Of a DNA stretch of 37,420 bases, positions 383-34,438 are shown one piece after another; position 1 is the stretch's first letter; every line of letters begins with the position of its first letter. The notes under the pieces are model-generated. The model saw only the letters and a list, made by a program, of their open reading frames with translations. It had not been told where the DNA came from and did not search any database. The translations under genes were made by a program, and so were the position numbers. The DNA comes from Betaproteobacteria bacterium (lineage in GTDB: Bacteria; Pseudomonadota; Gammaproteobacteria; Burkholderiales; SG8-41): positions 1-37,420 of the forward strand of contig OMIN01000106.1 of the NCBI GenBank assembly GCA_900299145.1, written 5' to 3'.

Positions 383-1318
383 ATGTCCACGGAACAGCAG
401 GATCGTCTTCGCGCCAAATATGGGGACGCTGCCTTCGAAGCGGGCAGCAGGTTTCAGGGTGAAGCCTTTGTAACGCGTCTTGCCCAACGCGATTCAATAG
501 ACCAGCACTTTACCCGTGCGTGGCTGGATTATCAGATCAAGGGCCTTTTCAGCCGCCCGGCGCTGGATACCCGCACGCGGCTGCTGGTGCTGGTTGGGCA
601 ATACACCATGGCCAAGGCGCAACCGCTGCTGGATGAAACGGTGCGTGCGGCGATTGCCGCCCGGGTGCCCGTGCGTGAGATCGCGGAAATCATTTTGCAA
701 TGCCTTGTCTATGGCGGCCACGTCACTGTTGATCCGGCGATACGCACATTTCACAGGATTGCCGAAGAACTGAATCTGCTGCCTGAACTCGCGCGCACGC
801 AATTGCCGCTCGATGGTACTGCCGGTGCTCGAAGCCGCGCCGAGGAAGAGAAAAAATGGCACAAGGATGACGTCGCCGATCCACGCACGCTGCCGTTGGT
901 CGACAAGCACGGCTGGCTCGCTGTGAGCACCGGCCTCACCATGCGCCCGCATCACCATATCAACATCCTCGACTGGATCGACCGGATGGACAGCGAATTC
1001 GCCGGGCTTTGGGTGCGGTTCTGCTACGCTGACATGTATACGCGCGGCATTGTCGATAACAAGACGCGCTTGCTGTGCATGGTGGGCGACTGCCTTGCGG
1101 TGGGCGAGACCACCAACGCGCGCGGCCACATGCGTGGCGCCATGCGTCAGGGTGCGAGTCCGCGTGAGGTGATGGAAATTATTTTTATGACCAGCAGCAA
1201 CTTCGGCATGCCGCCAGCGTGGCACGCGCTAGAGAATTTCATCGAGATCATGGCCGAAGACGGGCGCTTGGGTGAAATCGGCAACCCGCCGATGCGCGTC
1301 GAAAGCTATGCAAAATAG
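383..1318 (+). CDS. Carboxymuconolactone decarboxylase (CMD) family protein, two CMD domains
   Basis: A 311-residue protein with two CMD/AhpD-like helical domains, roughly residues 45-130 and 205-295. Single-domain family members are about 100-150 residues, so this is a tandem form. Family members include 4-carboxymuconolactone decarboxylase (protocatechuate pathway) and AhpD peroxidase partners. The first domain keeps a Cys and a His in 'EIILQCLVYGGH'; the second, 'EIIFMTSSNFGM', has lost the Cys, so an AhpD-type CxxC redox activity is unlikely. The exact substrate cannot be told from sequence. No signal peptide is seen, so it should be cytoplasmic. Its stop codon (1316-1318) lies inside an AT-rich intergenic motif. 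The next gene converges on it. Confidence 0.85.
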   Translation: MSTEQQDRLRAKYGDAAFEAGSRFQGEAFVTRLAQRDSIDQHFTRAWLDYQIKGLFSRPALDTRTRLLVLVGQYTMAKAQPLLDETVRAAIAARVPVREIAEIILQCLVYGGHVTVDPAIRTFHRIAEELNLLPELARTQLPLDGTAGARSRAEEEKKWHKDDVADPRTLPLVDKHGWLAVSTGLTMRPHHHINILDWIDRMDSEFAGLWVRFCYADMYTRGIVDNKTRLLCMVGDCLAVGETTNARGHMRGAMRQGASPREVMEIIFMTSSNFGMPPAWHALENFIEIMAEDGRLGEIGNPPMRVESYAK

Positions 1319-1340
1319 TCAATAAAAACAAATGGTTATG
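1312..1340 (+). repeat. AT-rich intergenic motif, copy 1
   Basis: Copy of the dispersed motif, core AAAACAAATGGTTATG. It includes the TAG stop of the CMD gene and lies in a convergent spacer, ending about 80 bases before the stop codon of the opposing TctC gene. There is no downstream gene on this strand for it to serve. Confidence 0.8.
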
Positions 1341-1418
1341 GATTTTCATGCGATCCATCCGAAGGGCGTTGCTTGCGCCGGCTCGAGCGCTCGCATGATC
1401 CCCGGTGGCCTCCAGCGC

Positions 1419-2390
1419 CTACTCCAGCTGTGCGCCGGATTCCTTAACCACTTTCGCCCATTTCACTGTTTCTGCCTTGACGAAGGCCGTCAGTTCATCG
1501 GCCGTGGATGGGCCGACATCAAGCCCCTGCAGCGTCAGGCGATCTTTCAAGTCGTTGCTGTTCAACGCCTTCACCGTTTCGGTGTTCAGCCGCGCGACGA
1601 TCGCTACCGGCGTCTTGGCGGGGGCGAACCAGCCGTACCAGATAGTGACTTCATAACCAGCCATGCCGGATTCGGCGAGGGTTGGAACGTCGGGCAACTG
1701 CGGATTACGTTTGCTGGTGGTGACGCCCAGCGCGCGCACGCGGCCCGATTTGATGTGCGGCAACAGGCCGGCAAGGCTCGAACACAGCGCCTGCAACTGC
1801 CCGCCCAGTACGTCGGCCACAGCAGCACCAGCGCCCTTGTAGGGCACATGCAGCATCGACACGCCGGTCATACTGCTGATCAACGCCATCGACAGATGCG
1901 TTGCGCTACCCACGCCGGATGAGCCATAGCTCACCTTGCCGGGGTTTGCCTTGGCGTAGGCGAGAAACTCTTTCACGCTTTTCACCGGCAGGCTGGCGTG
2001 CACCACCAGCACATTGGGCACGGTGCCGATCATCGAAATTGCCGCAAAGTCGCGGATGTGATCGTAGGGCAGCTTCTTGTATAGCACCGGATTCACCGCG
2101 TTGGTTGTGATCGACCCCATCAGAAGCGTGTACCCATCGGGCGTGGCCTTTGCCACGAGATCGGTGCCGACGATACCGCCGCCACCGCCACGGTTATCGA
2201 TCACCATTTGCTGACCGAGCTGTTCACTCATCTTCGCGGCGACCAGCCGCGCCACGGTATCGGTGCCGCCGCCGGGCGCGAGCGGCACTACTGCACGTAT
2301 CGGGCGCGTGGGATACGCGCTCGTTTGTGCCTGCGCCGCAGAGGTAGCGATCAACAAGAAGCCGGATGCGAACGCCGAAGTAGAGTGCAT
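1419..2390 (-). CDS. TctC/Bug family periplasmic solute-binding protein
   Basis: A 323-residue extracytoplasmic binding protein of the tripartite tricarboxylate transporter (TTT) family. It has a Sec signal peptide (about residues 1-22, ending AAQAQ), then 'YPTRPIRAVVPLAPGGGTDT', 'ATPDGYTLLMG' and 'HVPYKGAGAA'. These are the standard Bug landmarks in the usual order. Bug proteins bind carboxylates or amino acids between two lobes; the ligand here cannot be assigned. The start is placed at the ATG at 2390 because GGAGG sits five bases upstream; an upstream TTG is rejected. No TctA or TctB membrane gene is nearby. A divergent copy of the AT-rich motif precedes it by about 50 bases. Confidence 0.93.
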   Translation of the reverse strand: MHSTSAFASGFLLIATSAAQAQTSAYPTRPIRAVVPLAPGGGTDTVARLVAAKMSEQLGQQMVIDNRGGGGGIVGTDLVAKATPDGYTLLMGSITTNAVNPVLYKKLPYDHIRDFAAISMIGTVPNVLVVHASLPVKSVKEFLAYAKANPGKVSYGSSGVGSATHLSMALISSMTGVSMLHVPYKGAGAAVADVLGGQLQALCSSLAGLLPHIKSGRVRALGVTTSKRNPQLPDVPTLAESGMAGYEVTIWYGWFAPAKTPVAIVARLNTETVKALNSNDLKDRLTLQGLDVGPSTADELTAFVKAETVKWAKVVKESGAQLE

Positions 2391-2438
2391 GAAAGCCTCC
2401 AATGAATGAACCCGCTACGCATTGAGTTTCGGGTTATC

Positions 2439-2466
2439 AAAATTATTAATTAAAACATATACTTAG
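2439..2466 (+). repeat. AT-rich intergenic motif, copy 2
   Basis: Diverged copy with core AAAACATATACTTAGG, lying between the aldo/keto reductase gene and the TctC gene, both on the minus strand. Relative to their transcription it is in the opposite orientation to copy 5. Confidence 0.65.
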
Positions 2467-2519
2467 GTTGATCCTTGCCACGGACGTGCGCCGCGTTTCG
2501 TGCCTCACAGTCGCCGCCG

Positions 2520-3470: not shown

Positions 3471-3671
3471 TGCGCGATACTCCCTTGAGGTTGGTGAGGC
3501 AGGGCACGCGGTCTCGCGCTAGCCGGTAGTGCGGAAGGCCCCTCGCGTGTTGTCGTGTGAGGCGGGCGCGGTTGGTGCGAAAAATTTAACGCGTGCCGAG
3601 TTTACGATAAATTGTGCGGTGTCAAAGCCGGTCGCTGCTACACTCACAACCTGTTTGCGGAGGATTCCCTC

Positions 3672-4628
3672 ATGAATCGATTGATCACGTGCCTGGTGGT
3701 GTGTGCCACAGCGCTGGCTTCCAGCGCCATGGCCCAAACGTGGCCCGCCAAATCGGTACGGGTGATTGTGCCCTTCGCGCCGGGCGGCGGTGCGGATCTC
3801 ACCGCGCGGCCGGTATCGCAGAAATTGTCCGAGGCGCTGGGCCAGCAGTTCGTGGTGGACAATCGTGGCGGCGCCGGCGGCGCCATCGGTATGGAACTCG
3901 CGGCCAAGTCGCCACCGGACGGCTATACGCTCATGAGTATGTCGGGCAGTTTCTCGGCAACAGCCGCCACGCACAAGCTGCCGTACGATCCTCTGGATGC
4001 GCTGATCCCGGTGGTGGAAATCGGCTATGCACCGAATGTGCTGATCGTGCATCCGTCGGTGCCCGCTAAAACGCCAAAGGATCTGATCGCGCTGGTGCGT
4101 GCCAACCCCGGCAAACTGGTGTATGCGTCGACCGGCATCGGCGGCCTCACGCACATGTCCACCGAATTATTCGCGGTCATGGCGGGGCTGAAAATGATCC
4201 ACGTGCCCTACAAGAGCACCGGCGTGGCGATGCCGGAAATCATGGCGGGCCAGACGCAATTGATGGTGGCCGGCATGCTGGGTGCGCAACCGTTTTTCAG
4301 CAATGGCCGGCTGCGTGCATTGGGCGTGACCACGGCAAAGCGCTGGCCCAGCCTGCCGAATTTGCCGGCGATCGCTGAATCGCTGCCCGGCTATGAATCG
4401 GGAACCTATTACGGCATGTTTTTCCCAAAGGGCACGCCGCAGGCCATCATCAGCCGGCTTAACGCAGAGGTGAACAAGATCATGCAGGATGGCGGCATCA
4501 AGAACACACTGGAGGCGCAGGGCATGGCAGCGTCCGGCGGCACGGCGGCGGCGTTTGCCGGGCGCGTGAAAAAAGAATACGACGATTGGGTAAGGGTGGT
4601 GCGCGAGGCGAAGCTAAAGATCGAATAA
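3672..4628 (+). CDS. TctC/Bug family periplasmic solute-binding protein
   Basis: A 318-residue TTT-family binding protein. It has a Sec signal peptide ending 'SSAMAQ', then 'VRVIVPFAPGGGADLTAR', 'PPDGYTLMSM' and 'HVPYKSTG'. The ATG at 3672 is chosen because GGAGGA (3659-3664) lies seven bases upstream and the signal peptide begins directly there. This gene heads a same-strand run continuing with an SDR oxidoreductase, two more TctC genes and both aconitase X subunits, so it may belong to one uptake/catabolism unit. The ligand is unknown. The 201-base spacer before it, divergent from the aldo/keto reductase, should hold its promoter, but I could not place one firmly. Confidence 0.93.
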   Translation: MNRLITCLVVCATALASSAMAQTWPAKSVRVIVPFAPGGGADLTARPVSQKLSEALGQQFVVDNRGGAGGAIGMELAAKSPPDGYTLMSMSGSFSATAATHKLPYDPLDALIPVVEIGYAPNVLIVHPSVPAKTPKDLIALVRANPGKLVYASTGIGGLTHMSTELFAVMAGLKMIHVPYKSTGVAMPEIMAGQTQLMVAGMLGAQPFFSNGRLRALGVTTAKRWPSLPNLPAIAESLPGYESGTYYGMFFPKGTPQAIISRLNAEVNKIMQDGGIKNTLEAQGMAASGGTAAAFAGRVKKEYDDWVRVVREAKLKIE

Positions 4629-4642
4629 TCTTTGTGGCGATA

Positions 4643-4676
4643 ACATAAGTATTTGTTTTTATTGAATTATTTTAAG
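4643..4676 (-). repeat. AT-rich intergenic motif, copy 3 (near-consensus)
   Basis: One of the two best copies; on the minus strand it reads AATAAAAACAAATACTTATG. On the plus strand it is T-rich and ends in TTTTAAGG. The AAGG falls about nine bases before the GTG of the SDR gene, so the motif edge may provide its ribosome-binding site. Confidence 0.85.
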
Positions 4677-4685
4677 GATGGCATC

Positions 4686-5498
4686 GTGGCAAAACTGAAC
4701 GGAAAAGTGGCATTTCTCACCGGCGCTGGGGCTGGCATTGCCAAGGCAACGGCGAAATTGTTTGTCGCCGAAGGCGCGAAAGTGGCGATCATCGAATTGA
4801 ATCGCGAAGCGGGTGAAGCGGCGGAAAAGGAAATCCGTGCCGCGGGCGGTGACGCGCTTTACATCGAAACCGACGTTACCAAAGATGACAGCATGAAACG
4901 TGCGATGGATGCCACCATCGCACGTTTCGGCAGGCTCGATGTGATTTTCAATTGCGCGGGCGGCTCGCTGCAGGAAGACGTGCCAGTGCATGAAATGGAT
5001 CTCGCGGTGTGGCACCACACCATTAACCTGAACCTGTTGCATCCGTTTTTGAGTTGCCGCCACGGCATCCCGCACCTGATCAAGGCGGGCGGCGGCGCAA
5101 TCATCAATGTGACCTCGCATCTGGGCCTGATGGGTTCAATGAAGCCGGCGTACGCGGCCACGAAGGGGGGCATTATTTCGTTCACCAAAACGCTGGCGGC
5201 GCAATACGTGCAGCACAACATCCGCGCCAACGCCATTGCGCCGGGTTCGATACGCACCGAGCGGCAGATCAAGCGCTATGAAAACAAGGATTTCATGCTG
5301 GCCGAAAAGCCCAACGCTGCCGCGCGCGCCCGCATGAAAATGCAAAAGCTCTATCCGTTTTCGCATGGCAGTTCAGAGGACATCGCGGCGGTGGCGCTGT
5401 TTCTCGCCTCGGATGATTCGCGCATGCTGACCGGCAGCACGATTGCAGCCGACGGCGGGCGTTCGACCTATCTCCGAATTGCCGATGAGACGGATTAA
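4686..5498 (+). CDS. SDR family oxidoreductase
   Basis: A 270-residue classical short-chain dehydrogenase/reductase. It has the Rossmann dinucleotide motif TGAGAGIA at residues 12-19, 'NCAGG' after beta-4, and the catalytic Tyr156-x-x-x-Lys160 in 'AYAATKGG'. It ends with 'LTGSTIAADGGRS', typical of FabG-like members. Oxidation of a hydroxy acid or alcohol with NAD(P) is likely, but the substrate is not predictable. The start is taken as GTG at 4686, preceded by AAGGATGG; an upstream in-frame start at 4653 would use codons from the AT-rich motif and give a non-family N-terminus. The 3' end overlaps the next TctC start by 14 bases, implying translational coupling. Confidence 0.9.
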   Translation: MAKLNGKVAFLTGAGAGIAKATAKLFVAEGAKVAIIELNREAGEAAEKEIRAAGGDALYIETDVTKDDSMKRAMDATIARFGRLDVIFNCAGGSLQEDVPVHEMDLAVWHHTINLNLLHPFLSCRHGIPHLIKAGGGAIINVTSHLGLMGSMKPAYAATKGGIISFTKTLAAQYVQHNIRANAIAPGSIRTERQIKRYENKDFMLAEKPNAAARARMKMQKLYPFSHGSSEDIAAVALFLASDDSRMLTGSTIAADGGRSTYLRIADETD

Positions 5499-6462
5499 GA
5501 GCGCAGAACGATGGGCCGCTCCCGTGGTGATGCTTGCGTGCCTGTGGCCGGTGGTGGCGCAATCGTACCCCACCAAGCCCATACGTCTGGTTGTCACGTA
5601 TCCGCCCGGCGGCAACGCTGATCTGGTGGGGCGCGCTGTGGCGGGCAAGCTGGCGGAATTGATGGGGCAGCAGGTGGTGGTGGATAACCGCGGTGGCGCG
5701 GGCGGCGTGATTGGCACGATGATTGCCGCGCAGGCGGCCCCGGACGGTTACACGCTCATGCTTGGCACGTCGGCGGGCATGATGCTCGGCCCGTTGTTGT
5801 CGAGCACGCTGCCGTATGACGCGCTGCGCGATTTTGCGCCGGTAAGCAAGGTGATGGTTCTGCCGCAACTGCTGGTGATCAACCCGCAGTTGCCGGCGAA
5901 AAACGTAAAGGAGCTCGTCGCGCTGGCAAAGGCGAAACCCGGCATGCTCAATGCGGGGTCGAGTGGTGTTGGCACGCCCAACCATCTGGGCATTGAGTTG
6001 TTGAAGAGCATGACCGGCGTCAACATTGTGCACGTGCCGTACAAGGGTGGTGGACAGGCCATCACCGATTTGATCGGTGGGCAGATGCATCTGGCGTTTT
6101 CGAGCGTGCCAGCGGTGCTGCCGCACGTCAAAGCGGGGCGCCTCGCCGCGCTGGCGGTGGGCAGCGCCAAACGTTCGGTGGCGCTGCCGGGCGTGCCGAC
6201 CGTGGCTGAAAGCGGAGTCGCGGGTTTTGAATACAGCGCCTGGAACGGTCTGTTCGCGCCGGCGAGAACGCCGCCGGCCATCGTTGCGCGACTGAATAGC
6301 GAACTCGTCAAGGGCCTCGCCGCGCCCGACATTCATCAGCGCTTCATCGCCAACGGTGGTGAACCTTCGTCCAGTTCGCCGGAGGAATTGCGCCGCTATA
6401 TGATCGAAGAATCGGCGCGTTGGGCGAAAACCATTAAGGTGGCGGGGATCAGAATTGAGTAA
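5485..6462 (+). CDS. TctC/Bug family periplasmic solute-binding protein
   Basis: A 325-residue TTT-family binding protein. Its N-terminus is basic (MRRIKS), followed by a hydrophobic stretch ending 'WPVVAQ', a Sec signal. It then carries 'KPIRLVVTYPPGGNADLVG', 'AAPDGYTLMLG' and 'HVPYKGGGQA'. The ATG at 5485 overlaps the SDR stop and has only a weak ribosome site, consistent with coupled translation. It is followed, with an eight-base overlap, by a second TctC gene. The two are clearly different in sequence, so they are paralogues rather than a recent tandem copy and may bind related ligands. Confidence 0.92.
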   Translation: MRRIKSAERWAAPVVMLACLWPVVAQSYPTKPIRLVVTYPPGGNADLVGRAVAGKLAELMGQQVVVDNRGGAGGVIGTMIAAQAAPDGYTLMLGTSAGMMLGPLLSSTLPYDALRDFAPVSKVMVLPQLLVINPQLPAKNVKELVALAKAKPGMLNAGSSGVGTPNHLGIELLKSMTGVNIVHVPYKGGGQAITDLIGGQMHLAFSSVPAVLPHVKAGRLAALAVGSAKRSVALPGVPTVAESGVAGFEYSAWNGLFAPARTPPAIVARLNSELVKGLAAPDIHQRFIANGGEPSSSSPEELRRYMIEESARWAKTIKVAGIRIE

Positions 6463-7435
6463 GCGACATGTATTGGGTGCGGGCGTGATTTGGTTGTTGG
6501 CCGTTGCCGCGGTATACGCGCAACCTGCGCCAAGGCCGGGTTACCCGGTAAAGCCAGGTCGTGTTGTCGTGGCCTATCCACCTGGCGGTCCGACCGATAT
6601 TCTGGGCCGGCTGGTGGCGCAAAAGCTTTCCGAATACATGGGCCAGCAATTCATCGTTGACAACCGGCCGGGCGCCGCGGGCAACATCGGCGCCGAAATG
6701 GTGGTGAAGTCGCCACCTGACGGTTACACACTATTGACGGTACCCGCGACGCACGCAGTCACGCCGTCCATACAGGCGAAAATGCCGTTCGATACGTTGC
6801 GCGATTTCACCTATCTTGCGCTAATCGCTGAAGCGCCGTTCATTCTGGTGGTGCATCCGGCGCTGCCGGCGAAAAACGTGCGTGAACTGGCAGCACTTGC
6901 GCGCGCGCGTCCCGGCCAGTTGAATTACGGCGCGACAAGTCTCGGCGGCCTGCCGCATCTGGCGGGAGAACTTTTTAACCAGATGAACAACGTGAAAATG
7001 GTTGGCATCCCTTACAAGGGCGGTGCGCCAGCGACCATGGATTTGCTGGCCGGCCACGTGCCTATCATGTTCAACAGCATGCTCGCATCGATGCCGCACG
7101 TGAAAGGCGGCAAGCTGCGCGCGTTGGGCATGACTTCCTTAAAGCGCACGAGTGCCGCCCCGGAAGTGCCGACCATCGCCGAACAGGGCATGCCGGGTTT
7201 TGACGTGACCGGCTGGTACGGCGTGGGCGGGCCTGCGGGCATGCCGGCGGACATCGTGGCGCGGCTTAACTCGGAAATTGCGCGCGGCATGCGCGATCCT
7301 GCCGTGATCAAGCGGCTGGCAGGCGAAGGCGTCGACGCGGTAACGTCATCGCCGGAGGAATTCGCCGCGCGCGTGAAAAGCGAAATGGAGAAGTGGGGCA
7401 AAGTGGTGCGGGCGGCAGGGATTAAACCAGAATGA
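6455..7435 (+). CDS. TctC/Bug family periplasmic solute-binding protein
   Basis: A 326-residue TTT-family binding protein with signal peptide 'MSKRHVLGAGVIWLLAVAAV' ending about residue 23. It continues with 'GRVVVAYPPGGPTDILGR', 'PPDGYTLLTV' and 'GIPYKGGAPA'. The start is a TTG at 6455 inside the end of the previous gene, with GGGG about eight bases upstream; this is the only start that keeps the basic n-region. It is directly followed, after a 42-base gap, by the aconitase X genes, making it the best candidate binding protein for the substrate of that enzyme (inference from position only). Confidence 0.91.
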   Translation: MSKRHVLGAGVIWLLAVAAVYAQPAPRPGYPVKPGRVVVAYPPGGPTDILGRLVAQKLSEYMGQQFIVDNRPGAAGNIGAEMVVKSPPDGYTLLTVPATHAVTPSIQAKMPFDTLRDFTYLALIAEAPFILVVHPALPAKNVRELAALARARPGQLNYGATSLGGLPHLAGELFNQMNNVKMVGIPYKGGAPATMDLLAGHVPIMFNSMLASMPHVKGGKLRALGMTSLKRTSAAPEVPTIAEQGMPGFDVTGWYGVGGPAGMPADIVARLNSEIARGMRDPAVIKRLAGEGVDAVTSSPEEFAARVKSEMEKWGKVVRAAGIKPE

Positions 7436-7477
7436 GGCAGGCGTAAAATCGGCGTCCGGACTAGGAAAAAATCGCTC

Positions 7478-8716: not shown

Positions 8717-9126
8717 GCGCAAATAAGACCTTCACGGCGCGTCACGCCATGGGGAAAGCCGTGCGCGGCGAGGCACTCGTAGCGAAAGACGGTTTCTCCG
8801 CGCGCTACGATCTGGATCGCATCAACGGCGTGTTTTCGCGGCCCGCGCATAAATTGGTGGGGCAGTCTTACGTTGGCAAAATCCTTGTGCTCGACACTGC
8901 CAAGGGCGGAGTCGCCACTGCGTGGATGTTGCTCGAGATGCAGTCGCGCGGCATCGTGCCACTGGCCATTGTGCTCAACTCGGTAAACCCCATCATCGCG
9001 CAGGGCGCAGCGCTGGGCGATGTACCGTTGCTGGCGGGCTTTGATGTCGATATTACACAGGCCGTGGCGCATGGCTCGACTGTAGAGATTGATCCTGCCC
9101 GCAAAATGCTTGCGGTAAGGTCTTAA
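8713..9126 (+). CDS. Aconitase X swivel-domain/small subunit
   Basis: A 137-residue protein matching the AcnX small (DUF126, swivel) subunit. It begins 'MSANKTFTARHAMGKAVRGEAL', has a central 'FSRPAHKLVGQSYVGKILVLD' and ends 'GSTVEIDPARKML'. The swivel domain closes over the Fe-S active site of the large subunit, so both are needed for dehydratase activity. The ATG at 8713 overlaps the large-subunit stop in an ATGA arrangement, giving coupled 1:1 synthesis. An in-frame start further upstream is discarded because it would run 11 codons into the previous gene. Its TAA stop lies at the left edge of an AT-rich motif. Confidence 0.9.
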   Translation: MSANKTFTARHAMGKAVRGEALVAKDGFSARYDLDRINGVFSRPAHKLVGQSYVGKILVLDTAKGGVATAWMLLEMQSRGIVPLAIVLNSVNPIIAQGAALGDVPLLAGFDVDITQAVAHGSTVEIDPARKMLAVRS

Positions 9127-9153
9127 AAAAGTCAATTAAAACAAATAGTTATG
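9124..9153 (+). repeat. AT-rich intergenic motif, copy 4
   Basis: Core AAAACAAATAGTTATGG. It begins at the TAA stop of the AcnX small subunit and lies in a convergent spacer of 62 bases, so it is downstream of genes on both sides. Confidence 0.8.
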
Positions 9154-9188
9154 GAGATCCTTAACCGGGCATCGAAGCAAATCGTGTT

Positions 9189-10001
9189 TCAGTCCGTGAA
9201 GCGCAGCATCAGTCCCTTAACGCCGGGCAAACCGCTGTAACGCGATTGCCACGTCTCGCCTGGCTTGACGGGCAATGCAGCGGTTAACGTTCCCGTAGTG
9301 ATGATTTCACCGGCCTCGAGGCCATCGAACGCCGGCTGCGTGGCGAGAATGTCTGCGAGAAACGCCAGCGCCAGCGCGGGATGGTCGAGCGCGTTGCTGC
9401 CCTTGCCCTGATCCATCGGCGCGCCGTCGCGGTTTAGGGCAATCGTGCAATCGTGCAGTTGTGCGGCGAACGCGGGGATTATGTCCGCGGTCACCGCCAC
9501 CGGCGTGCCCACCACCAGCCGCCAGTGCAGCGAAAAATCCGCGGCAAATTCCGCCGGCGAGCATTTCCAATCCGCGAAGTGGCAGCACACGATTTCAAAA
9601 CTCGGCGCGTACCATGCGATGGCTTGCAGGATTTTTTCAGGATCCGTGCAATGCACCGGCACAGGCGCGCGCAGGCAAAATGCAATTTCTGGCTCGATCA
9701 GCGGCTGGCAACTGTTGGCGAGCGATAGTGTGGCCGAGCTGTTTTCAGCGCGCACCAGCGTTCGGTCATAAACGTGATGCCAGATCGGCGAGGTTGCGCC
9801 GTACTGCGGCCAGATGTTGCGATTGGTGAAGCCAATTTTTCGCCCCACCGGCTTTTCGCCGCGCGCGCGCCGCAGGCGTATGAGTTCGGCGCTGACGGCG
9901 TAGGCATCATTCCAGTTGAAGGACGTATGCCGCACGGTGATCCGTGGCACGACCGCGCCGTTGTCCCAGGCACTGAGCAATTCATTCGCAATATCATTCA
10001 T
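9189..10001 (-). CDS. 2-keto-4-pentenoate hydratase / fumarylacetoacetate hydrolase family enzyme
   Basis: A 270-residue protein of the MhpD/DmpE/HpcG hydratase family. It shows 'GRKIGFTNRNIW' near residue 54, the metal-ligand motif 'IEPEIAF' (two Glu) and a third ligand in 'SFEIVCC'. The C-terminal part has 'EIITTGTLTAALPVKPGETW', the strand that closes the active site. Members hydrate 2-oxopent-4-enoate or decarboxylate oxalocrotonate in meta-cleavage pathways of aromatic compounds. No other meta-cleavage gene is present here, so the pathway is open. It starts at ATG 10001, directly at the edge of an AT-rich motif, without a visible Shine-Dalgarno sequence. Confidence 0.88.
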   Translation of the reverse strand: MNDIANELLSAWDNGAVVPRITVRHTSFNWNDAYAVSAELIRLRRARGEKPVGRKIGFTNRNIWPQYGATSPIWHHVYDRTLVRAENSSATLSLANSCQPLIEPEIAFCLRAPVPVHCTDPEKILQAIAWYAPSFEIVCCHFADWKCSPAEFAADFSLHWRLVVGTPVAVTADIIPAFAAQLHDCTIALNRDGAPMDQGKGSNALDHPALALAFLADILATQPAFDGLEAGEIITTGTLTAALPVKPGETWQSRYSGLPGVKGLMLRFTD

Positions 10002-10030
10002 AAGGATCTGTTTTTATTGAATTATTTTGC
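9999..10030 (-). repeat. AT-rich intergenic motif, copy 5 (fills stop-to-start gap)
   Basis: On the minus strand the motif contains the TAA stop of the FGE-fold gene (10022-10024) and ends exactly in the ATG of the hydratase gene (9999-10001). The whole 20-base spacer between these two genes is motif. No Shine-Dalgarno sequence is seen, so the A-rich stretch itself may be the translation initiation region. Confidence 0.85.
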
Positions 10031-10816: not shown

Positions 10817-10861
10817 CGCTCATTGTTTTGCGCCTCACCCCTCACGTTTTACGCCTCACGG
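10817..10861 (-). repeat. Period-7 tandem repeat (GTGAGGC/GTAAAAC units)
   Basis: Read on the minus strand, five consecutive 7-base units occur: GTGAGGC, GTAAAAC, GTGAGGG, GTGAGGC and GCAAAAC. They fill most of the 51-base gap between the TctC gene and the FGE-fold gene. This is the same unit family as the arrays at 19580, 28195, 29417 and 33430. Confidence 0.75.
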
Positions 10862-11863
10862 TCACTCGGGCTTGATCCCCGCCGCCTTAACCACCTTGCC
10901 TATCGTGGCATAGTCGTCGCGAATCATTTTGGCGAATTCCTCTGGTGAGATGCTGGCGGTGGGTGCAAGGCCTTGAGAAGCGAATTGATCCTTCACATCC
11001 GGCATCGCTGCGACCTTGCGCATCACGCCATGCACCTGATTGATGATCGCGCGCGGTGTGCCTGCGGGCGCCAGCACGCCGTTCCAGCTGCCAAAGTCGT
11101 AACCGGGCACGCCCGCCTCGGCGACAGTGGGCAGTTCGGGCAGAATTGACGAACGCTTGCCCGAGGAAATCGCAATGGCGCGCAGGCGCCCGGCGCGAAT
11201 CAGGCCCACCAGCGCCGCCGCCGGCGAGATCGCCCATTGCAACTCGTTGGCGACGATCGCCGCGGCCATCGGCCCGCCGCCTTTGTACGGCACGTGCGTG
11301 CTGTTGATGCCGATAAAACTCACAAACAGCAGCCCGGCGAGATGACTGGACGAGCCCACGCCCGCAGAACCCATGTGGAGTTTGCCCGGCTGCGCTTTGG
11401 CGAGCGCGAGAAAATCTTTCACGCCTTTGATGGGCAACGAAGGATTCACCACAAACACTGCTTCAACGTTGGCGAACAGTGAAATCGGTGCGAAGTCTTT
11501 CAGCGTGTCGAAGGGCAGCTTTTTGTAAGTGTAGCTGGAGACGATCATTGAACTCGATGCGCCCGCCAGCAGCGTATAGCCGTCGGCGGGCGAACGCGCG
11601 GCGAGTTCCACACCGATGGTGCCACCGGCGCCGCCGCGATTGTCGACGACGATTTGCTGGCCCAGCACGTCAGTCATTTTCTGCGCGAAAATGCGCAATA
11701 TGGTGTCGAGCGACGAGCCTGCAGACTGAGCGGCGATCATGCGGATGGGCCGCTCAGGGTAGGCGCCGCCCGCCGGCTGTGCGTGCGTGCACGGAGCCAC
11801 AGCCCACAGTGCCACCACAGCTCCGAGGCTGTGCGTATTTAAGTATATGATTTTATTGAACAT
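10862..11863 (-). CDS. TctC/Bug family protein whose first codons lie in the AT-rich motif
   Basis: A 333-residue TTT-family binding protein: 'RPIRMIAAQSAGSSLDTI', 'SPADGYTLLAG', 'HVPYKGGGPM' and 'TVAEAGVPGYD'. The glycine-rich loop usual in the family (PGGG.D) is replaced by 'AQSAGSSLD', so ligand contacts may differ. The ATG at 11863 has a strong GGAGG seven bases upstream, and the first eight or so residues (MFNKIIYLN) are translated from a diverged copy of the AT-rich motif. The signal peptide is therefore partly motif-encoded and ends near 'CTHAQ'. Transcription continues toward the FGE-fold and hydratase genes. Confidence 0.92.
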   Translation of the reverse strand: MFNKIIYLNTHSLGAVVALWAVAPCTHAQPAGGAYPERPIRMIAAQSAGSSLDTILRIFAQKMTDVLGQQIVVDNRGGAGGTIGVELAARSPADGYTLLAGASSSMIVSSYTYKKLPFDTLKDFAPISLFANVEAVFVVNPSLPIKGVKDFLALAKAQPGKLHMGSAGVGSSSHLAGLLFVSFIGINSTHVPYKGGGPMAAAIVANELQWAISPAAALVGLIRAGRLRAIAISSGKRSSILPELPTVAEAGVPGYDFGSWNGVLAPAGTPRAIINQVHGVMRKVAAMPDVKDQFASQGLAPTASISPEEFAKMIRDDYATIGKVVKAAGIKPE

Positions 11864-11871
11864 TATTTTTC
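11838..11871 (-). repeat. AT-rich intergenic motif, copy 6 (overlaps start of a TctC gene)
   Basis: Diverged copy with core AAATCATATACTTAAA, preceded by AATAATGTTCAAT. The ATG within it is the start codon of the TctC gene at 10862-11863, so this copy is translated as MFNKIIYLN. It is the one copy in the window that clearly contributes more than a start or stop codon to a protein. Confidence 0.7.
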
Positions 11872-12597: not shown

Positions 12598-13893
12598 TTA
12601 ATGCCCGGTCCCCTCTGGAATCGCTGGCAACGGGCCTTGCGTCAGGTTGTACTGATGGCGTTTACGCACCAGCCACATCGAGCCTGACACGAAGGCGCCG
12701 AATAGCGCGATGACGATGTAAATGGACAGATCAAGGCTGATCAGCAGTGCGTAAATGCCGATCATGCACAGAATCGACAGATTCTCATTGAAGTTCTGCA
12801 CCGCGATGGAGTGGCCCGCGCCCATCAGGATGTGCCCACGATGCTGCAACAGCGCATTCATCGGTACTACAAAGTATCCCGCCAGCCCGCCGATCAGGAT
12901 AATCAGCGGCGCGGCGATCCAGACGGATTTTGCCACCACCATCAATATCACCACCGCACCCATGAGGATACCCAGTGGAATCACGGTGACCGCGCGGTTG
13001 AGCGGTACCATTTTCGCCGCCATTACCGCGCCGATGGCGATGCCCAGTGCGCACACGCCCTGCAAATAAGTGCCTTGCGAAAGCGTATAGCCGAGTGCGA
13101 CTTCTGCCCATTTGAGGACGATGAATTGCAGCGTGGCACCGGCGCCCCAGAAGAGGGTGGTAGTGGCAAGCGAAATCTGGCCGAGCTTGTCGGTCCACAA
13201 GAGCTTCATGCAATGCGCGAATTCGCGGATCAGGTGCACCGGGTTGCGGTTCACCATTTTGTGATCGACGCCAGTGTTCGGAATGTAGAGATTGAAAATC
13301 GCTGCGATCAGATAAAGCATCGCGATGAAGGCAATGGCGATCTCGACGGGCGTGTCGATGCCGGCCAGAAAGTGCGGCAACTCGACGGCCAACAGGCGGT
13401 CGGATACCCGTTCGCTCACCAGTGCGCCGCCCAGGAGCGTGCCGAGAATGATCGAACTCACCGTCAGCCCCTCGATCCAGCCATTGGCGACCACCAGTTT
13501 ATGGTGTGGCAGGTATTCGGTGAGAATGCCGTACTTCGCAGGCGAATAGGCCGCCGCGCCCAGCCCCACCACCGCGTAGCCGAACAGCACGGTAAAGTAA
13601 TCGTCGAGCCCCGGCACCGACCACAGTTCATGGAAAAAAATCATCATGCAGCCGATGATTTTTATGGTGTTGGTAATGAACATCACGCGGCCTTTGGGCA
13701 TGGAATCGGCGAACGCGCCGACCACCGCCGCGAACAGCACATAAGACACCGTGAAAAAAAACTTCAGCATCGGTGTCATCCACTCCGGCGCATACAGCTG
13801 CATCAGCAATGCAATAGCGGCGACCAGCAACGCGTTATCCGCCAGCGACGAAAAAAATTGCGCCGCCATGATGATGTAAAAGCCGAATGGCAT
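12598..13893 (-). CDS. lplT: Lysophospholipid transporter LplT (MFS)
   Basis: A 431-residue major facilitator family protein with about 11-12 hydrophobic segments. LplT landmarks are the N-terminal 'MPFGFYIIMAAQFFSSLADNAL', 'SPAKYGILTEYLPHHKLVVANGWIEGLTV' and the long 'GYFVVPMNALLQHRGH' near the C-terminus. LplT flips lysophospholipids, mainly lyso-PE, across the inner membrane for re-acylation. In Enterobacteria it is next to the acyltransferase gene aas; here no acyltransferase is adjacent. In related betaproteobacteria it sits next to alr and radA, and the order here is the same except that a TctC gene lies between. The ATG at 13893 follows an AT-rich stretch. Confidence 0.93.
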   Translation of the reverse strand: MPFGFYIIMAAQFFSSLADNALLVAAIALLMQLYAPEWMTPMLKFFFTVSYVLFAAVVGAFADSMPKGRVMFITNTIKIIGCMMIFFHELWSVPGLDDYFTVLFGYAVVGLGAAAYSPAKYGILTEYLPHHKLVVANGWIEGLTVSSIILGTLLGGALVSERVSDRLLAVELPHFLAGIDTPVEIAIAFIAMLYLIAAIFNLYIPNTGVDHKMVNRNPVHLIREFAHCMKLLWTDKLGQISLATTTLFWGAGATLQFIVLKWAEVALGYTLSQGTYLQGVCALGIAIGAVMAAKMVPLNRAVTVIPLGILMGAVVILMVVAKSVWIAAPLIILIGGLAGYFVVPMNALLQHRGHILMGAGHSIAVQNFNENLSILCMIGIYALLISLDLSIYIVIALFGAFVSGSMWLVRKRHQYNLTQGPLPAIPEGTGH

Positions 13894-13918
13894 GTTATTG
13901 ATTTATAAGAATAATTTT
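13891..13918 (-). repeat. Possible degenerate AT-rich motif, upstream of lplT
   Basis: A strongly AT-rich stretch ending in the lplT ATG (minus strand, ...AATCAATAACATG). It resembles the motif in composition and position, but the core AAAACARATR is not conserved, so membership is doubtful. Confidence 0.3.
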
Positions 13919-14200
13919 GATTCCGGTGCCGAGCCGGTCATGCAACGGCGACGTTTATACCACAGATTGAATACCGCTACCGGGCGTGGGTTGCCGGGTC
14001 TCTTCGCAAAGCAACTGAGCGGACCATCGCTGCTCCACCTGGGCATCGAGGCCGGGTGGCCTGTCGCACAGGCCGGCGGCAGGCCCTGCGGGGAAATCTG
14101 TCTACAAGCCCGGGCGGAATTATGGTTGAATAGCCCGCGCTCGTTTGAAGTACCGTTGCACGCGCGCCTCAGCGGGGCGCGGGATATTTCTGGAGATGGC
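13919..14200. other. Spacer between lplT and a divergent TctC gene
   Basis: About 280 bases without a supported gene. The plus frame of the downstream TctC gene is open through it, but the translation (for example 'GRGLPGLFAKQLSGP') looks unlike any binding-protein N-terminus and precedes a good signal peptide. It should contain divergent promoters, but I see no clear -35/-10 pair. It contains none of the repeats found in most other spacers, apart from the AT-rich edge at lplT. Confidence 0.5.
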
Positions 14201-15262: not shown

Positions 15263-15292
15263 CGTAAGTATCTGTTTTTAAATAATATTTTG
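15263..15292 (-). repeat. AT-rich intergenic motif, copy 8
   Basis: Core AAAACAGATACTTACG on the minus strand. On the plus strand its T-rich end runs into the TTG start codon of alr at 15290-15292. Confidence 0.8.
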
Positions 15293-19579: not shown

Positions 19580-19614
19580 GTGAAATTTGAAACGTGAATG
19601 GTGAAACGTGTGGC
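19580..19614 (+). repeat. Period-7 tandem repeat (GTGAAAC units) between suhB and trmJ
   Basis: Five contiguous 7-base units: GTGAAAT, TTGAAAC, GTGAATG, GTGAAAC and GTGTGGC. They sit in the divergent suhB-trmJ spacer, immediately upstream of suhB. The register is exact over 35 bases. Confidence 0.75.
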
Positions 19615-19665
19615 GTTTCGCTGTGCCGTGGATTGTACGTGATATGACTTGATTGTGACCGGCCA

Positions 19666-20414: not shown

Positions 20415-20444
20415 ATGTAAGTATTTGTTTTTATTGAATTATTC
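20415..20444 (-). repeat. AT-rich intergenic motif, copy 9 (near-consensus)
   Basis: Reads AATAAAAACAAATACTTAC on the minus strand, nearly identical to copy 3. It lies between trmJ and the predicted cysE promoter, just upstream of the -35 box. Confidence 0.85.
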
Positions 20445-20451
20445 GTAATAC

Positions 20452-21235: not shown

Positions 21236-21269
21236 GGGTAGGTGGCGTGCCCTGCGGCTTTCTGAAATC

Positions 21270-21294
21270 TTACTTGACTAATTCTGTCGGAATA
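21270..21294 (+). promoter_or_regulatory. IscR type-1 binding site, proximal suf operon promoter
   Basis: TTGACTAATTCTGTCGG with flanks agrees with the type-1 IscR consensus in the half-sites GACT (21276-21279) and GTC, and in the central A/T block. It covers the -35 box TTGACT, as expected for autorepression by [2Fe-2S]-IscR. Confidence 0.65.
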
Positions 21295-21302
21295 GGTAAA
21301 GT
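21274..21302 (+). promoter_or_regulatory. Predicted iscR promoter
   Basis: -35 TTGACT (21274-21279), 17-base spacer and -10 TAAAGT (21297-21302). A second pair, TTGACA (21302-21307) and CATAAA (21325-21330), again with a 17-base spacer, is an alternative; its -10 would lie inside the AT-rich motif. Confidence 0.55.
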
Positions 21303-21320
21303 TGACAGGATTAGTGGGTA
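21300..21320 (+). promoter_or_regulatory. Possible second IscR site
   Basis: GTTGACAGGATTAGTGGGTAT resembles the first site in half-sites GACA and AGT and in the terminal GGGTAT, but has one base fewer between them. A tandem arrangement of two sites would fit strong autoregulation. Confidence 0.4.
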
Positions 21321-21323
21321 TTT

Positions 21324-21354
21324 TCATAAACATCTGTTTTAAAACACTTTTTAG
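21324..21354 (-). repeat. AT-rich intergenic motif, copy 10
   Basis: Diverged copy with core AAAACAGATGTTTATGA on the minus strand, in the iscR leader. On the plus strand it ends TTTTTAGG, and AGGTG lies six bases before the iscR ATG, so the motif edge again provides a ribosome-binding sequence. Confidence 0.7.
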
Positions 21355-23037: not shown

Positions 23038-23372
23038 TGATTCAATTGACGGAAAACGCAGCAAAACAGATCAAGACCCAGTTAAGCAAGCGCGGCAAAG
23101 GCTTGGGCCTGCGCGTGGGCATAAAGAAAAACGGCTGTTCCGGTTGGGCTTACACCTATGATTACGCCGACGAAGTGCGTGCGGGCGACCAGGTGTTTGA
23201 AGCCTATGACTCGAAACTGGTGGTGGATGAAAAGAGTCTTGAGTTCATCGACGGCTCGAAGCTTGATTTCGTCAAAGACGGCCTGAAGCAGGTATTCAAG
23301 TTTGACAATCCGAACGTGGATGCCACCTGCGGCTGCGGCGAGAGTTTCAGTGTCAAAGAAAAAACACAATAA
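23037..23372 (+). CDS. sufA: A-type Fe-S carrier (SufA/IscA family)
   Basis: A 111-residue A-type carrier with the three conserved cysteines: Cys34 in 'KKNGCSGWAY' and Cys98/Cys100 in 'ATCGCGESF'. These proteins receive clusters from the SufBCD scaffold and pass them to apo-targets. The one-base stop/start overlap (TGATG) with the desulfurase fixes the start. SufA and IscA are hard to separate by sequence; position immediately before sufB supports SufA. Its TAA stop is formed by the AT-rich motif. Confidence 0.92.
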   Translation: MIQLTENAAKQIKTQLSKRGKGLGLRVGIKKNGCSGWAYTYDYADEVRAGDQVFEAYDSKLVVDEKSLEFIDGSKLDFVKDGLKQVFKFDNPNVDATCGCGESFSVKEKTQ

Positions 23373-23388
23373 AAACAAATAGTTGTGG
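23359..23388 (+). repeat. AT-rich intergenic motif, copy 11
   Basis: Core AAAACAAATAGTTGTGG. It bridges the sufA stop (23370-23372) and the sufB start (23392), an 18-base gap filled almost wholly by motif. No Shine-Dalgarno sequence is apparent for sufB. Confidence 0.8.
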
Positions 23389-26959: not shown

Positions 26960-26977
26960 TTGCGAAATGAGCGCGCG

Positions 26978-28198: not shown

Positions 28199-28288
28199 GG
28201 CGTGAGGCGTGAGGCGTGAGGAGCGAGATTCGTGGACGTGCCAATGGGCATTTCACGCCTGACCCCTCACGCTTCTCGCCTCGCGAAA
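28195..28288 (+). repeat. Heptamer array with inverted second half between sufS and sufU
   Basis: Four exact-register units GTGAGGC, GTGAGGC, GTGAGGC, GTGAGGA (28195-28222), then GCGAGAT. After a short unique stretch the same units recur in inverse orientation (28249-28288: for example CCTCACGC at 28265-28272). GCGTGAGG (28207-28214) can pair with CCTCACGC to form a stem across the sufS-sufU spacer. The array begins inside the sufS stop region and ends just before the sufU ATG. Confidence 0.8.
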
Positions 28289-28291
28289 GAA

Positions 28292-28789: not shown

Positions 28790-28799
28790 TGCCTAAACT

Positions 28800-28830
28800 C
28801 TAAAATATTAATAAAAACAAATACTTACGA
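28800..28830 (+). repeat. AT-rich intergenic motif, copy 12 (near-consensus)
   Basis: Reads AATAAAAACAAATACTTACG, ending two bases before the ATG of the Nfu gene at 28833. Again no Shine-Dalgarno sequence is visible between motif and start codon. Confidence 0.85.
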
Positions 28831-28832
28831 TA

Positions 28833-29405: not shown

Positions 29406-29416
29406 TGCCGCAAATC

Positions 29417-29437
29417 GGGAAATGTGAAACTTGAATC
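29417..29437 (+). repeat. Short heptamer array (GTGAAAC units)
   Basis: Three units in register, GGGAAAT, GTGAAAC and TTGAATC, in the 48-base gap between the Nfu gene and the TctC gene. A weak member of the GTGAAAC family on its own; it gains support from the similar 19580 array. Confidence 0.5.
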
Positions 29438-29453
29438 GTCTGGAGGGAGTCTC

Positions 29454-30407: not shown

Positions 30408-30467
30408 GACCAAGTGGGGCGAGCCCGGTAAGTCAGGCGAATTGTTTATTCTGAATCTGGCTCGTCG

Positions 30468-31562: not shown

Positions 31563-31575
31563 CGGGAGTCCAGGT

Positions 31576-32385: not shown

Positions 32386-32396
32386 CTGTGGGTTCG

Positions 32397-32431
32397 TATA
32401 ATAAGTATCTGTTTTTATTGAATAATTCTTC
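32397..32431 (-). repeat. AT-rich intergenic motif, copy 13
   Basis: Minus-strand core AAAACAGATACTTATTA with TTATTCAATA before it. It fills the gap between the M48 peptidase and the next TctC gene, ending one base before that gene's ATG. The TctC gene has no visible Shine-Dalgarno sequence. Confidence 0.82.
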
Positions 32432-33400
32432 ATGCTGAATCTCGCGCCAAAGCTGTTGGCTGCCGCACTCTGCGTAGGCTGCGCGCCGCTGTACGCACAA
32501 CCCGCTTTCCCGGTGAAGCCGATACGGTTGGTCGTGCCGTTCCCGCCCGGCGGTGGCAACGACCTGCTCGCGCGTGCGATCGGCCAGCGGCTTGCGGAGG
32601 TCGTCAATCAGCAAGTTATTGTTGATAACCGTGGCGGTGCGGGCGGTGCATTGGGTGCGCAGATCGCGGCCACGGCCGCGCCCGACGGCTATACGCTTTT
32701 TCTCGGCAGTCTCGGCAACCTTGCGCAAAACCCGCTGCTGCAGGAAAAGCCCATTTACGACCCGGTGCGTGATTTTGCCGCGGTGACACTGCTTGCGACA
32801 TCGGTGTTCGTGCTGGTGGTGAACAACAGCGTGCCGGCGAAAACCATTCCGGAATTCATTGCACTAGCCAAGGCGAAGCCCGGCACGCTGAATTACGGAT
32901 CCGCTGGCGTGGGCTCGTCCGTGCATCTTGCACCGGAAATTTTCAAATACAGCACGGGCACGAACATCGTGCACGTGGCGTACAAGGGCGCGGGCGCTGC
33001 GTTTATTGACCTCATCGCAGGTCAGGTGCACATGATGCTGACGACCCTGCCCGCGGGCTTGCCGCACGTGCGTGCCGGCAAGGTGCGCGCGCTGGGCACG
33101 TCGGGCAAAAAGCGCGTGGCGACACTGCCCGATGTGCCGACCATCGCGGAAACCGTGCCGGGGTTTGAGATTCTCAACTGGCAGGGCATTACCGCACCTG
33201 CTAAAACGCCGGTGGCCACCGTGCGCATGCTGCATGATCACCTAAAAGCGTCGTTAAAGCGCCCCGGCATGAACGAAGCACTGGCGCATCAGGGGTTGGA
33301 TGCGGCGGGCGCGGGGCCGGAGGAATTCGGCGCGTTGATCAAATCCGAAATTGCCAAATACGGCAAGGTGGTCAAGGCGGCGGGGATCAAGGTGGATTAA
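32432..33400 (+). CDS. TctC/Bug family periplasmic solute-binding protein
   Basis: A 322-residue TTT-family binding protein. A Sec signal 'MLNLAPKLLAAALCVGCAPL' ends near 'YAQ', then 'KPIRLVVPFPPGGGNDLLAR', 'AAPDGYTLFLG' and 'HVAYKGAGAA'. The ATG at 32432 directly follows the AT-rich motif. It is followed after 45 bases by a D-2-hydroxyacid dehydrogenase gene, suggesting that the bound ligand might be a hydroxy or keto acid; this rests only on proximity. Confidence 0.93.
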   Translation: MLNLAPKLLAAALCVGCAPLYAQPAFPVKPIRLVVPFPPGGGNDLLARAIGQRLAEVVNQQVIVDNRGGAGGALGAQIAATAAPDGYTLFLGSLGNLAQNPLLQEKPIYDPVRDFAAVTLLATSVFVLVVNNSVPAKTIPEFIALAKAKPGTLNYGSAGVGSSVHLAPEIFKYSTGTNIVHVAYKGAGAAFIDLIAGQVHMMLTTLPAGLPHVRAGKVRALGTSGKKRVATLPDVPTIAETVPGFEILNWQGITAPAKTPVATVRMLHDHLKASLKRPGMNEALAHQGLDAAGAGPEEFGALIKSEIAKYGKVVKAAGIKVD

Positions 33401-33429
33401 GTAGTGAACAAGAATCAAACAACATTAGC

Positions 33430-33443
33430 GTGAGGAGCAAGGC
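33430..33443 (+). repeat. Two heptamer units upstream of the dehydrogenase
   Basis: GTGAGGA and GCAAGGC in register, in the 45-base spacer before the hydroxyacid dehydrogenase gene. They supply AGGAG and AAGG just upstream of the ATG at 33446, so ribosome-site function can explain them by itself. Confidence 0.3.
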
Positions 33444-33445
33444 CC

Positions 33446-34393
33446 ATGAGCACACCGGATAACAAAGCGCTGATCGTAGTGCCCGATGATTTCACCACGG
33501 TGTTCGAGGGCAGCGCCGCGCACGATGAGGCGCGCGCGCTCGGTACCGTGCGTGTGTTCAGCGAACGCGGCGCGGAAGATTCCGCTGAACTCGCACGGCG
33601 CATCGGCAACGCCCAGGTCGCGGTCAATATCCGCGCATACGCCCACTTTACCGATGCGGTGTTCGCCGCGTGCCCCAATCTCAAGATGGTTTCGATCTGG
33701 GGGGTGGGCACAGACAATATCGACCTCGAAGCGGCCAAGCGGCGCGGCGTTACCGTGTGCAACACGCCGGGCGCGAATGCCATTGCCGTGGCGGAGCACG
33801 CCATCGCCTTAATGATGGCGGTGGCACGCAAAATCCCGCAAATCGACAGTGCCATGCGCAAGGGCGAATGGCCGCGCGAAATGCTGGGGCAGCTGCACGG
33901 CAAAACACTGGCGCTGCTCGGCACCGGCGCCATCGGTTCGCACGTGGGCAAACTCGCGCGCGCCTTCGGCATGAACGTGCTGGCGTGGAGCGCGCAACGC
34001 AACAGCCTCACCGAGCGCGACGATATGCTAAAGCGCGCCGATTTCGTGTCGCTGCACGTGCGCCTGACGCCACAAACGCGCGGCTTCATCGGCGCGCGCG
34101 AGTTCGCCTTGATGAAGTCCGAAGCGATATTGGTCAACACCGGGCGCGGCGCGCTGGTCGACCGCGAGGCGCTGCACGACGTGCTCGCCAAACAGCGCAT
34201 CGCGGGAGCGGGGCTGGATGTGTTTCACGATGAACCGCTGAAGGCGGGCGACCCGATACTGAGCTTCGCCAACACTGTGCTGTCACCGCACAACGCCGGG
34301 CAGACGCCTGAGGTGCGGCGCGATGGGTTGCTGCTGACGATACAGAACGTGAAGAAGTTTCTGGCGGGGGCGCCGCAGAATGTGGTGGTGTGA
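33446..34393 (+). CDS. D-2-hydroxyacid dehydrogenase (SerA-like)
   Basis: A 315-residue NAD-dependent dehydrogenase of the D-isomer-specific 2-hydroxyacid family. The Rossmann motif GTGAIG is at residues 159-164, 'VNTGRGALVDREAL' has the conserved catalytic-region Arg/Gly, and 'SPHNAGQTPE' contains the catalytic His. 'WGVGTDNID' is the usual substrate-side loop. The enzyme lacks the regulatory C-terminal domain of long SerA forms, so it may be a phosphoglycerate, glyoxylate or related hydroxyacid dehydrogenase. The start has AGGAGCAAGG close upstream. Confidence 0.9.
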   Translation: MSTPDNKALIVVPDDFTTVFEGSAAHDEARALGTVRVFSERGAEDSAELARRIGNAQVAVNIRAYAHFTDAVFAACPNLKMVSIWGVGTDNIDLEAAKRRGVTVCNTPGANAIAVAEHAIALMMAVARKIPQIDSAMRKGEWPREMLGQLHGKTLALLGTGAIGSHVGKLARAFGMNVLAWSAQRNSLTERDDMLKRADFVSLHVRLTPQTRGFIGAREFALMKSEAILVNTGRGALVDREALHDVLAKQRIAGAGLDVFHDEPLKAGDPILSFANTVLSPHNAGQTPEVRRDGLLLTIQNVKKFLAGAPQNVVV

Positions 34394-34408
34394 GTGCAGC
34401 TCATAGGG

Positions 34409-34438
34409 GAAATAATTTTTTAAAACAAATAGTTATGT
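34409..34438 (+). repeat. AT-rich intergenic motif, copy 14 (last copy)
   Basis: Core AAAACAAATAGTTATG downstream of the hydroxyacid dehydrogenase. The ATG in it opens only four codons before a stop, so it starts no gene. No further copies are seen to the end of the window. Confidence 0.8.

Follow-up and report, generated by a model that had tools for sequence, protein, structure and literature searches.

What is the AT-rich motif of about 30 bp that recurs at gene borders throughout a GC-rich stretch of betaproteobacterial DNA? The stretch, contig OMIN01000106.1 (37,420 nucleotides), was analysed as a whole and is called the window hereafter; its assignment to the betaproteobacteria is based on RadA. 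The initial annotation counted 13 copies of the motif, or about one per 2.9 kb, and considered either a small spreading repeat or a conserved RNA-level element. We recovered all 13 copies, at that density. We propose, with about even confidence, that the motif is a lineage-specific candidate DNA uptake sequence, analogous to the DNA uptake sequences (DUS) of Neisseriaceae and the uptake signal sequences (USS) of Pasteurellaceae, because its abundance, strand symmetry, fixed positions within fast-changing gene borders, even spacing and family limits match the profile known for such sequences.

The motif is abundant and strand-symmetric

Genomes are labelled here by G-numbers and the genera of one family by g1 to g9; the genome to which the window belongs is G000, a member of g1 (5,508,723 bases, or 5.51 Mb, in 158 contigs). 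The core pattern AAAACARATRSTTAYG, allowing at most two mismatches, matched this genome 1,248 times (629 forward and 619 reverse), compared to 24 matches for the reversed pattern (13 and 11). The element is thus real and dispersed, as the initial annotation had it. The mean density in G000 is one copy per 4.4 kb, and that of the window one per 2.9 kb.

Alignment of 166 copies from 803 kb of G000 defined the full element as an AT-rich sequence of 29 bp, AAAWWANTCAATWAAAACARATASTTAYR, in which a conserved core, reading YRTAASTATYTG on the other strand, is combined with A/T tracts centred approximately 10 bp apart. The columns beyond these 29 bp were nearly flat, therefore there is no larger repeat unit. 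The 803 kb sample represents 14.6% of the genome and consists of long contigs with exact copies, chosen from the first 100 matches listed; its copy density (166 core matches) does not exceed the genome mean. From the 166 copies, those of the window included, we derived a 30-column weight matrix, which gave 214 hits at a score of at least 20 bits in the same 803 kb and none in a reversed control, and 223 hits as opposed to 3 at a threshold of at least 16 bits. As the matrix was trained on copies from G000, the scores it returns in relatives are biased low.

Copies lie mainly at gene borders, in either orientation

Genes in the 803 kb were predicted by a home-made caller, which placed 757 genes covering 88% of the bases. 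Despite this coverage, only 35 of 201 copies (at least 22 bits, with a gene on both sides) lay wholly within called genes. Seventeen of these 35 sit no more than 60 nt from a called start, and the calling of starts is uncertain. A copy was rarely present in spacers of less than 20 bp (5/184). Among the 201 copies, those between tandem genes ran with transcription in 65 cases and against it in 49, another 31 lay in convergent spacers, and 21 lay in divergent ones. Successive copies likewise showed all four orientation pairs (61/45/44/43). The presence of both orientations, in convergent spacers too, agrees with the earlier judgement that this is not a plain promoter. Moreover, the near-equal orientations, together with the copies in convergent and divergent spacers, point to an element that acts as double-stranded DNA.

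Positions and orientations are kept among relatives

Syntenic DNA from 11 relatives was collected, and orthologous spacers were compared at a threshold of at least 16 bits, with widened margins for the counts; G009, a motif-free genome, was excluded from all of these comparisons. Of the 41 comparisons at sites where the window has a copy, 33 found one in the relative too and 8 did not (without a weak 17-bit site, the total is 33 of 40). Orientation was identical in all 33 shared copies. By contrast, no spacer that is empty in the window held a copy in a relative: both were empty in 72/72 comparisons. In 38 of these, the window spacer is below 20 bp, which leaves hardly any room for a copy; in the other 34, it measures 33 to 96 bp. 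Place and orientation were kept within g1 and in two further genera, represented by one genome each. The variable positions and clean insertions of a mobile repeat were not seen in these spacers, and the element does not look mobile.

Copies stay put while the flanks diverge. The site upstream of iscR is kept in 10/10 relatives, including G018 (g6) and G019 (g7), though the adjacent bases differ. The spacer between the NifU-like and Nfu genes is 30 bp long both in G008, where it holds the motif, and in G009, where it does not, and the cysE spacer of G005 seems to contain a degraded copy in place; therefore the gain and loss of copies seems to proceed, at least in part, by substitution. In the IscA-type/sufB spacer of G007 and G010, the copy seems to be absent through replacement of DNA.

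Spacing is even in three of four genomes

The 193 gaps between copies in G000 had a mean of 3.70 kb and a coefficient of variation (CV) of 0.586, compared to a mean CV of 0.848 when copies were placed at random gene borders (0 of 500 randomizations were as low). When spacers were matched for class and length, the CV was 0.642 vs. 0.884 in G000 (163 gaps, p ≤ 0.001) and 0.601 vs. 0.844 in G002 (51 gaps, p = 0.003). The more distant G019 (g7) gave 0.526 vs. 0.901 (51 gaps, p = 0.001), with two gaps below 2 kb where 9.5 were expected. No two copies in G000 lay within 150 bp of each other, and 10 of the 193 gaps were shorter than 1 kb; in G019, one pair was 84 bp apart. The random-border null, used for G000 and G019, drew spacers of at least 20 bp, and the observed copies of G000 include some intragenic ones in that test; the matched test (G000, G002 and G013) was restricted to spacers; the gene caller, the matrix and the null models are our own. 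It is not evident why promoters, terminators or factor-binding sites should avoid one another across kilobases. According to PMC1939737, Karlin et al. observed significant even spacing of the known uptake sequences.

The motif is limited to part of one family

We surveyed 74 genomes from the nine genera of the family. The motif was dense in 13 of 14 g1 genomes (296–1,248 matches) and in the one genome of g6 (679). It was intermediate in 21 g7 genomes (61–264; the lowest, G075, had 61 matches vs. 40 in the control) and weak in three g8 genomes (36–75 vs. 11–19) and in 1 of 15 g2 genomes (G014, 81 vs. 28). The remaining genomes of the family were at background. The motif was also at background in 387 genomes sampled from other families of the order, where the maximum at no more than one mismatch was 13 matches (G452, 13 vs. 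2 in the control). A matrix search of 80 RadA loci (1.29 Mb), from which records near the window were possibly left out, returned three hits, all in locus L065. Copies in g7 are intact, the median score in G019 (41.7 bits) being the same as in G000.

A RadA tree of 25 genomes of the family and five others grouped g1 with g6 (95/88), with G009 inside this clade on a long branch, and placed g7, g8 and g4 as sisters (86/81). G009 is filed in g1 and is motif-free; its G+C content is 48% (280 kb read), compared to 60% in G000. A screen for over-represented 11-mers in four motif-free genomes, G009 (280 kb), G021, G033 and G015 (100 kb each), found no replacement motif. The known motif itself escaped this screen in 84 kb of G018 and 100 kb of G019, hence the screen is blunt at low density. 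Separately, units resembling AACCTTGAACC and ACCGCTTACCG recur in G015 (L214-L218), probably as local arrays.

Competence genes accompany the motif in part

G000 has matches to the ComEC, ComEA and minor-pilin families, and its ComP_DUS match sits in a minor-pilin cluster together with PilW and a Tt1218-like pilin. Genes for minor pilins occupy approximately 42.1-45.0 kb of contig G000:C69. ComEC (PF03772) was present in 34 of the 36 genomes of the family that were examined, and was missing from G009 and G027, both of which are motif-free. That G009, the sole member of g1 without the motif, is also without ComEC lends further support to the motif being an uptake sequence, as does the USS-like layout of the motif. 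ComEA (TIGR00426 over cut-off) was found in 12 of 14 motif-dense genomes, the two misses being genomes of 62% and 84% completeness; of the 22 other genomes of the family, only G009 had it. In G000, G018 and, in diverged form, G009, ComEA is present between an epimerase gene and a pyridoxal-phosphate (PLP)-enzyme gene, presumably hldD-like and cysM-like.

ComEA was missing at the hldD-like/cysM-like locus in 11 of 11 genomes (seven of g7, two of g8, one of g9 and one of g2; L281-L291). ComEC was retained in the seven of these covered by the ComEC survey. Within g7, only 2 of 21 genomes had even a weak HHH_3 hit over cut-off, in a short frame. Since g7 copies are kept without ComEA, ComEA is not needed for maintenance of the motif, and we rejected it as a strict requirement. 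The decay of the motif that would be expected had g7 lost competence was likewise rejected, the copies being intact. As a side observation, the ComEA-like protein of G000 (L233:7660-8331, G000:C97) carries a tail of approximately 120 residues after its HHH domain that is mostly Lys, Ala, Asp and Glu.

A candidate uptake sequence, and the points against it

As an uptake sequence, the motif would mark DNA of the bacterium's own kind, and marked DNA would be preferred in natural transformation. One of the surface proteins of the type IV pilus system, most naturally a minor pilin, might bind the core, which reads YRTAASTATYTG on the other strand, perhaps assisted by the pair of A/T tracts that lie about one helical turn from each other. 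Marked fragments would enter cells more often, so that matches would be kept and restored at tolerant sites, that is, at gene borders; a second copy near a first would gain little, which would lead to even spacing. In its fullest form, the proposal is that of a third independently evolved system of self-recognition in DNA uptake, in a betaproteobacterial family outside the Neisseriaceae, that uses an AT-rich signal of 29 bp, dispenses with the usual ComEA in some genera and breaks down on loss of ComEC. To this we give slightly less than even credence.

Several observations weigh against an uptake role. Most motif-free genomes among the 36 examined carry ComEC, and the joint loss of motif and ComEC is a single event. 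ComEA is linked with motif density only, for which shared descent alone may be the explanation, and g7 keeps intact, evenly spaced copies though seven of its genomes are without ComEA at the usual locus. The ComP_DUS pilin (PF16732) was found in 51 of 60 genomes, motif-bearing and motif-free alike; being not discriminating, it was rejected as a marker of the motif. No substitute motif was recovered from the four motif-free genomes, in a screen that is weak for all but the 280 kb of G009. Spacing was not even in G013 (p = 0.55), where the copies are only eight and too few. An excerpt of PMC2397512 argues that many DUS arise via recombination, not point mutation. It also reports DUS to be absent from recently acquired genes, whereas the two largest copy-free gaps in the 803 kb of G000, 13.6 kb (8/8 genes scanned) and 12.5 kb (10/12, one without a Pfam match), hold chromosomal-type genes; we considered these gaps as foreign DNA and rejected the idea, signs of mobile DNA not being seen among the scanned genes. 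Lastly, known uptake sequences are described as less even than a role in packing needs (PMC1939737, in part), therefore strong evenness also fits packing.

Alternative explanations

The last point leads to the rival that survives best, although we consider it doubtful: a binding site for a lineage-specific nucleoid or topology protein that would anchor or bend DNA every 4–9 kb and thereby organise the chromosome. Such a site would suit the even spacing seen in three genomes, as well as the symmetry between strands and the location at borders; copies at gene borders would be kept since GC-rich coding sequence can hardly hold the motif. Furthermore, A/T tracts about one turn apart might indicate bent DNA, and the motif is kept in g7 without ComEA. 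An approximately fourfold range of copy number among the motif-bearing g1 genomes (296 to 1,248), and none in G009, would however be odd for a structural need, and the absence of ComEC from G009 also speaks against it. A candidate protein did not come to light, in an analysis that made no search aimed at one.

We find it improbable that the motif is an element of transcription or RNA, such as a terminator, a processing signal or an anti-terminator signal at operon borders. In 24 of the 65 forward copies between tandem genes, the matrix window starts within the final 5 nt of the preceding gene, that is, at its stop codon, and the copy at iscR lies between what we take to be a promoter-like sequence and the start codon, as such an element might. 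Nevertheless, both orientations occur between tandem genes (65 vs. 49), 31 copies lie in convergent and 21 in divergent spacers, and the mutual avoidance of copies over kilobases would be left unexplained. When RNA folds were computed for the 13 window copies in motif orientation, extended by 10 nt at either end, none showed a marked structure (z from –1.53 to 1.29), in agreement with the hairpin-free character first noted for them, and an Rfam search of the window at gathering thresholds gave no hits. The RNA-level element of the initial annotation is therefore not favoured.

The regulon of a transcription factor is far less probable still. Some copies do lie near gene starts at conserved positions, for example those of iscR and cysE, but there are more than 1,000 sites, divergent spacers with two promoters are not enriched (19/102 hold the motif, vs. 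31/106 convergent and 114/508 tandem spacers), and the genes beside copies in the window are functionally mixed. The least credible alternative is the other one entertained in the initial annotation, a spreading non-coding repeat of the REP/MITE kind (repetitive extragenic palindrome, miniature inverted-repeat transposable element), which would fit the high copy number and dispersal but not the retention of spacer and orientation in relatives (33/33), the spacers empty wherever the window is empty (72/72), the lack of a unit beyond 29 bp or the even spacing. Collectively, the dispersed, lineage-specific element stands, and neither of the two interpretations first attached to it is favoured.

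Copies and neighbouring genes in the window

The 13 copies score 32.6 to 53.4 bits with the 30-column matrix, and the genes beside them include iron-sulphur genes, alanine racemase, TctC receptors and dehydrogenases, among others. Copy 1 (1311..1340, + strand, 45.8 bits) overlaps the stop codon of a CMD-family gene (383-1318), and copy 2 (2438..2467, +, 41.2 bits) is flanked by the end of an aldo/keto reductase gene and by the start, called at 2390 or 2402, of a minus-strand TctC gene. The highest score, 53.4 bits, belongs to copy 3 (4644..4673, –), which has a TctC gene on one side and an SDR gene on the other. Copy 4 (9124..9153, +, 50.6 bits) occupies a convergent spacer past an AcnX swivel-domain gene, while copy 5 (9999..10028, –, 44.1 bits) links the stop codon of an FGE-sulfatase-domain gene with the start codon of an FAA-hydrolase gene, both on the minus strand. 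Copy 6 (11838..11867, –, 36.8 bits) is at the called start of a minus-strand gene (10862-11863).

The next six copies could be compared with relatives, the counts for copies 8 to 11 excluding G009. Copy 7 (15263..15292, –, 43.9 bits), upstream of the alanine racemase gene, is present in 2/2 comparable relatives. Copy 8 (20416..20445, –, 46.6 bits), in the trmJ-like/cysE-like spacer, is found in six of seven, and copy 9 (21325..21354, –), directly upstream of the start codon of the iscR-like (Rrf2) gene, in 10 of 10; its score, 32.6 bits, is the lowest. Copy 10 (23358..23387, +, 42.0 bits) overlaps a stop codon in the IscA-type/sufB spacer (4/8), copy 11 (28800..28829, +, 47.8 bits) lies in the NifU-N/Nfu spacer (7/8), and copy 12 (32400..32429, –, 43.1 bits) is upstream of a TctC gene, 32432-33400 (4/5). 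Copy 13 (34408..34437, +, 41.7 bits), in a convergent spacer after a 2-hydroxyacid dehydrogenase gene, has no comparable relative. A weak site at 13889..13918 (–, 17.3 bits), with nothing of at least 16 bits in G002, its sole comparable relative, is probably a relic or due to chance. The names iscR, sufB, cysE and trmJ are in part our presumption.

Upstream of the iscR-like gene, the interval 21265-21345 contains what we take to be IscR type-1 box-like sequences and a TTGACT-17-TATAGT-like promoter; these are conserved in relatives, G009 included. A second short, repeat-like type of sequence (CGTGAGGCGTGAG / AACGTGAA) fills the spacers 10835-10862 and 19580-19615 of the window, and in the IscA-type/sufB spacers of some relatives (G007, G010 and G013), sequence of this type occupies the position that the AT-rich motif has in the window. 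The window also contains six genes for TctC-family solute receptors within 37 kb (1419-2402, 3612-4628, 5443-6462, 6455-7435, 13892-15232 and 32432-33400).

Significance and comparison with known systems

A search of the open-licence PubMed Central literature gave, among the matches listed, no report of the motif or of an uptake sequence in Burkholderiales; a Plasmodium paper returned by the string search was unrelated. An excerpt of a 2025 article names Neisseriaceae and Pasteurellaceae as the only families known to discriminate own from foreign DNA at binding via short motifs (PMC12616744). Should the motif be an uptake sequence, a third, unrelated signal would imply that self-recognition of DNA evolves repeatedly, and the roles proposed for uptake sequences, in sex, drive or chromosome packing, would become open to comparative tests. 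For these, the family provides a natural series in which the motif is dense, intermediate, weak or absent. Should the motif be a packing site instead, a 29-bp signal every 4–9 kb would constitute a new chromosome-organising code.

Among known dispersed sequences, REP elements and bacterial interspersed mosaic elements (BIME) resemble the motif in having dispersed intergenic copies. They are palindromic and show an insertion pattern, whereas the motif has neither and its positions are fixed.

DUS are likewise betaproteobacterial, the majority of neisserial DUS lie between genes and are conserved in regions of greater divergence, as described in part of PMC2397512, and a gene for a ComP_DUS-family pilin is present here. 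The differences are that DUS measure 10–12 bp with a CTG core (according to excerpts of PMC12616744, among other sources) while the motif is AT-rich and 29 bp long, that no dialects were found here, and that the ComP_DUS pilin family also occurs in motif-free genomes. USS are unrelated in sequence, with an inner core of GCGG (PMC12616744, in part), and more closely spaced, at about 1 kb (an excerpt of PMC7811141) compared to mean gaps of 3.7 to 8.2 kb here; 65% of the USS of H. influenzae are located in genes (in part after a portion of PMC1939737), whereas the motif lies mostly at gene borders. In layout, the likeness is with USS: both comprise a short core and A/T tracts, as given for USS in passages of PMC7811141, and both occur in many copies, in both orientations and with the even spacing that the excerpted PMC1939737 reports for USS.

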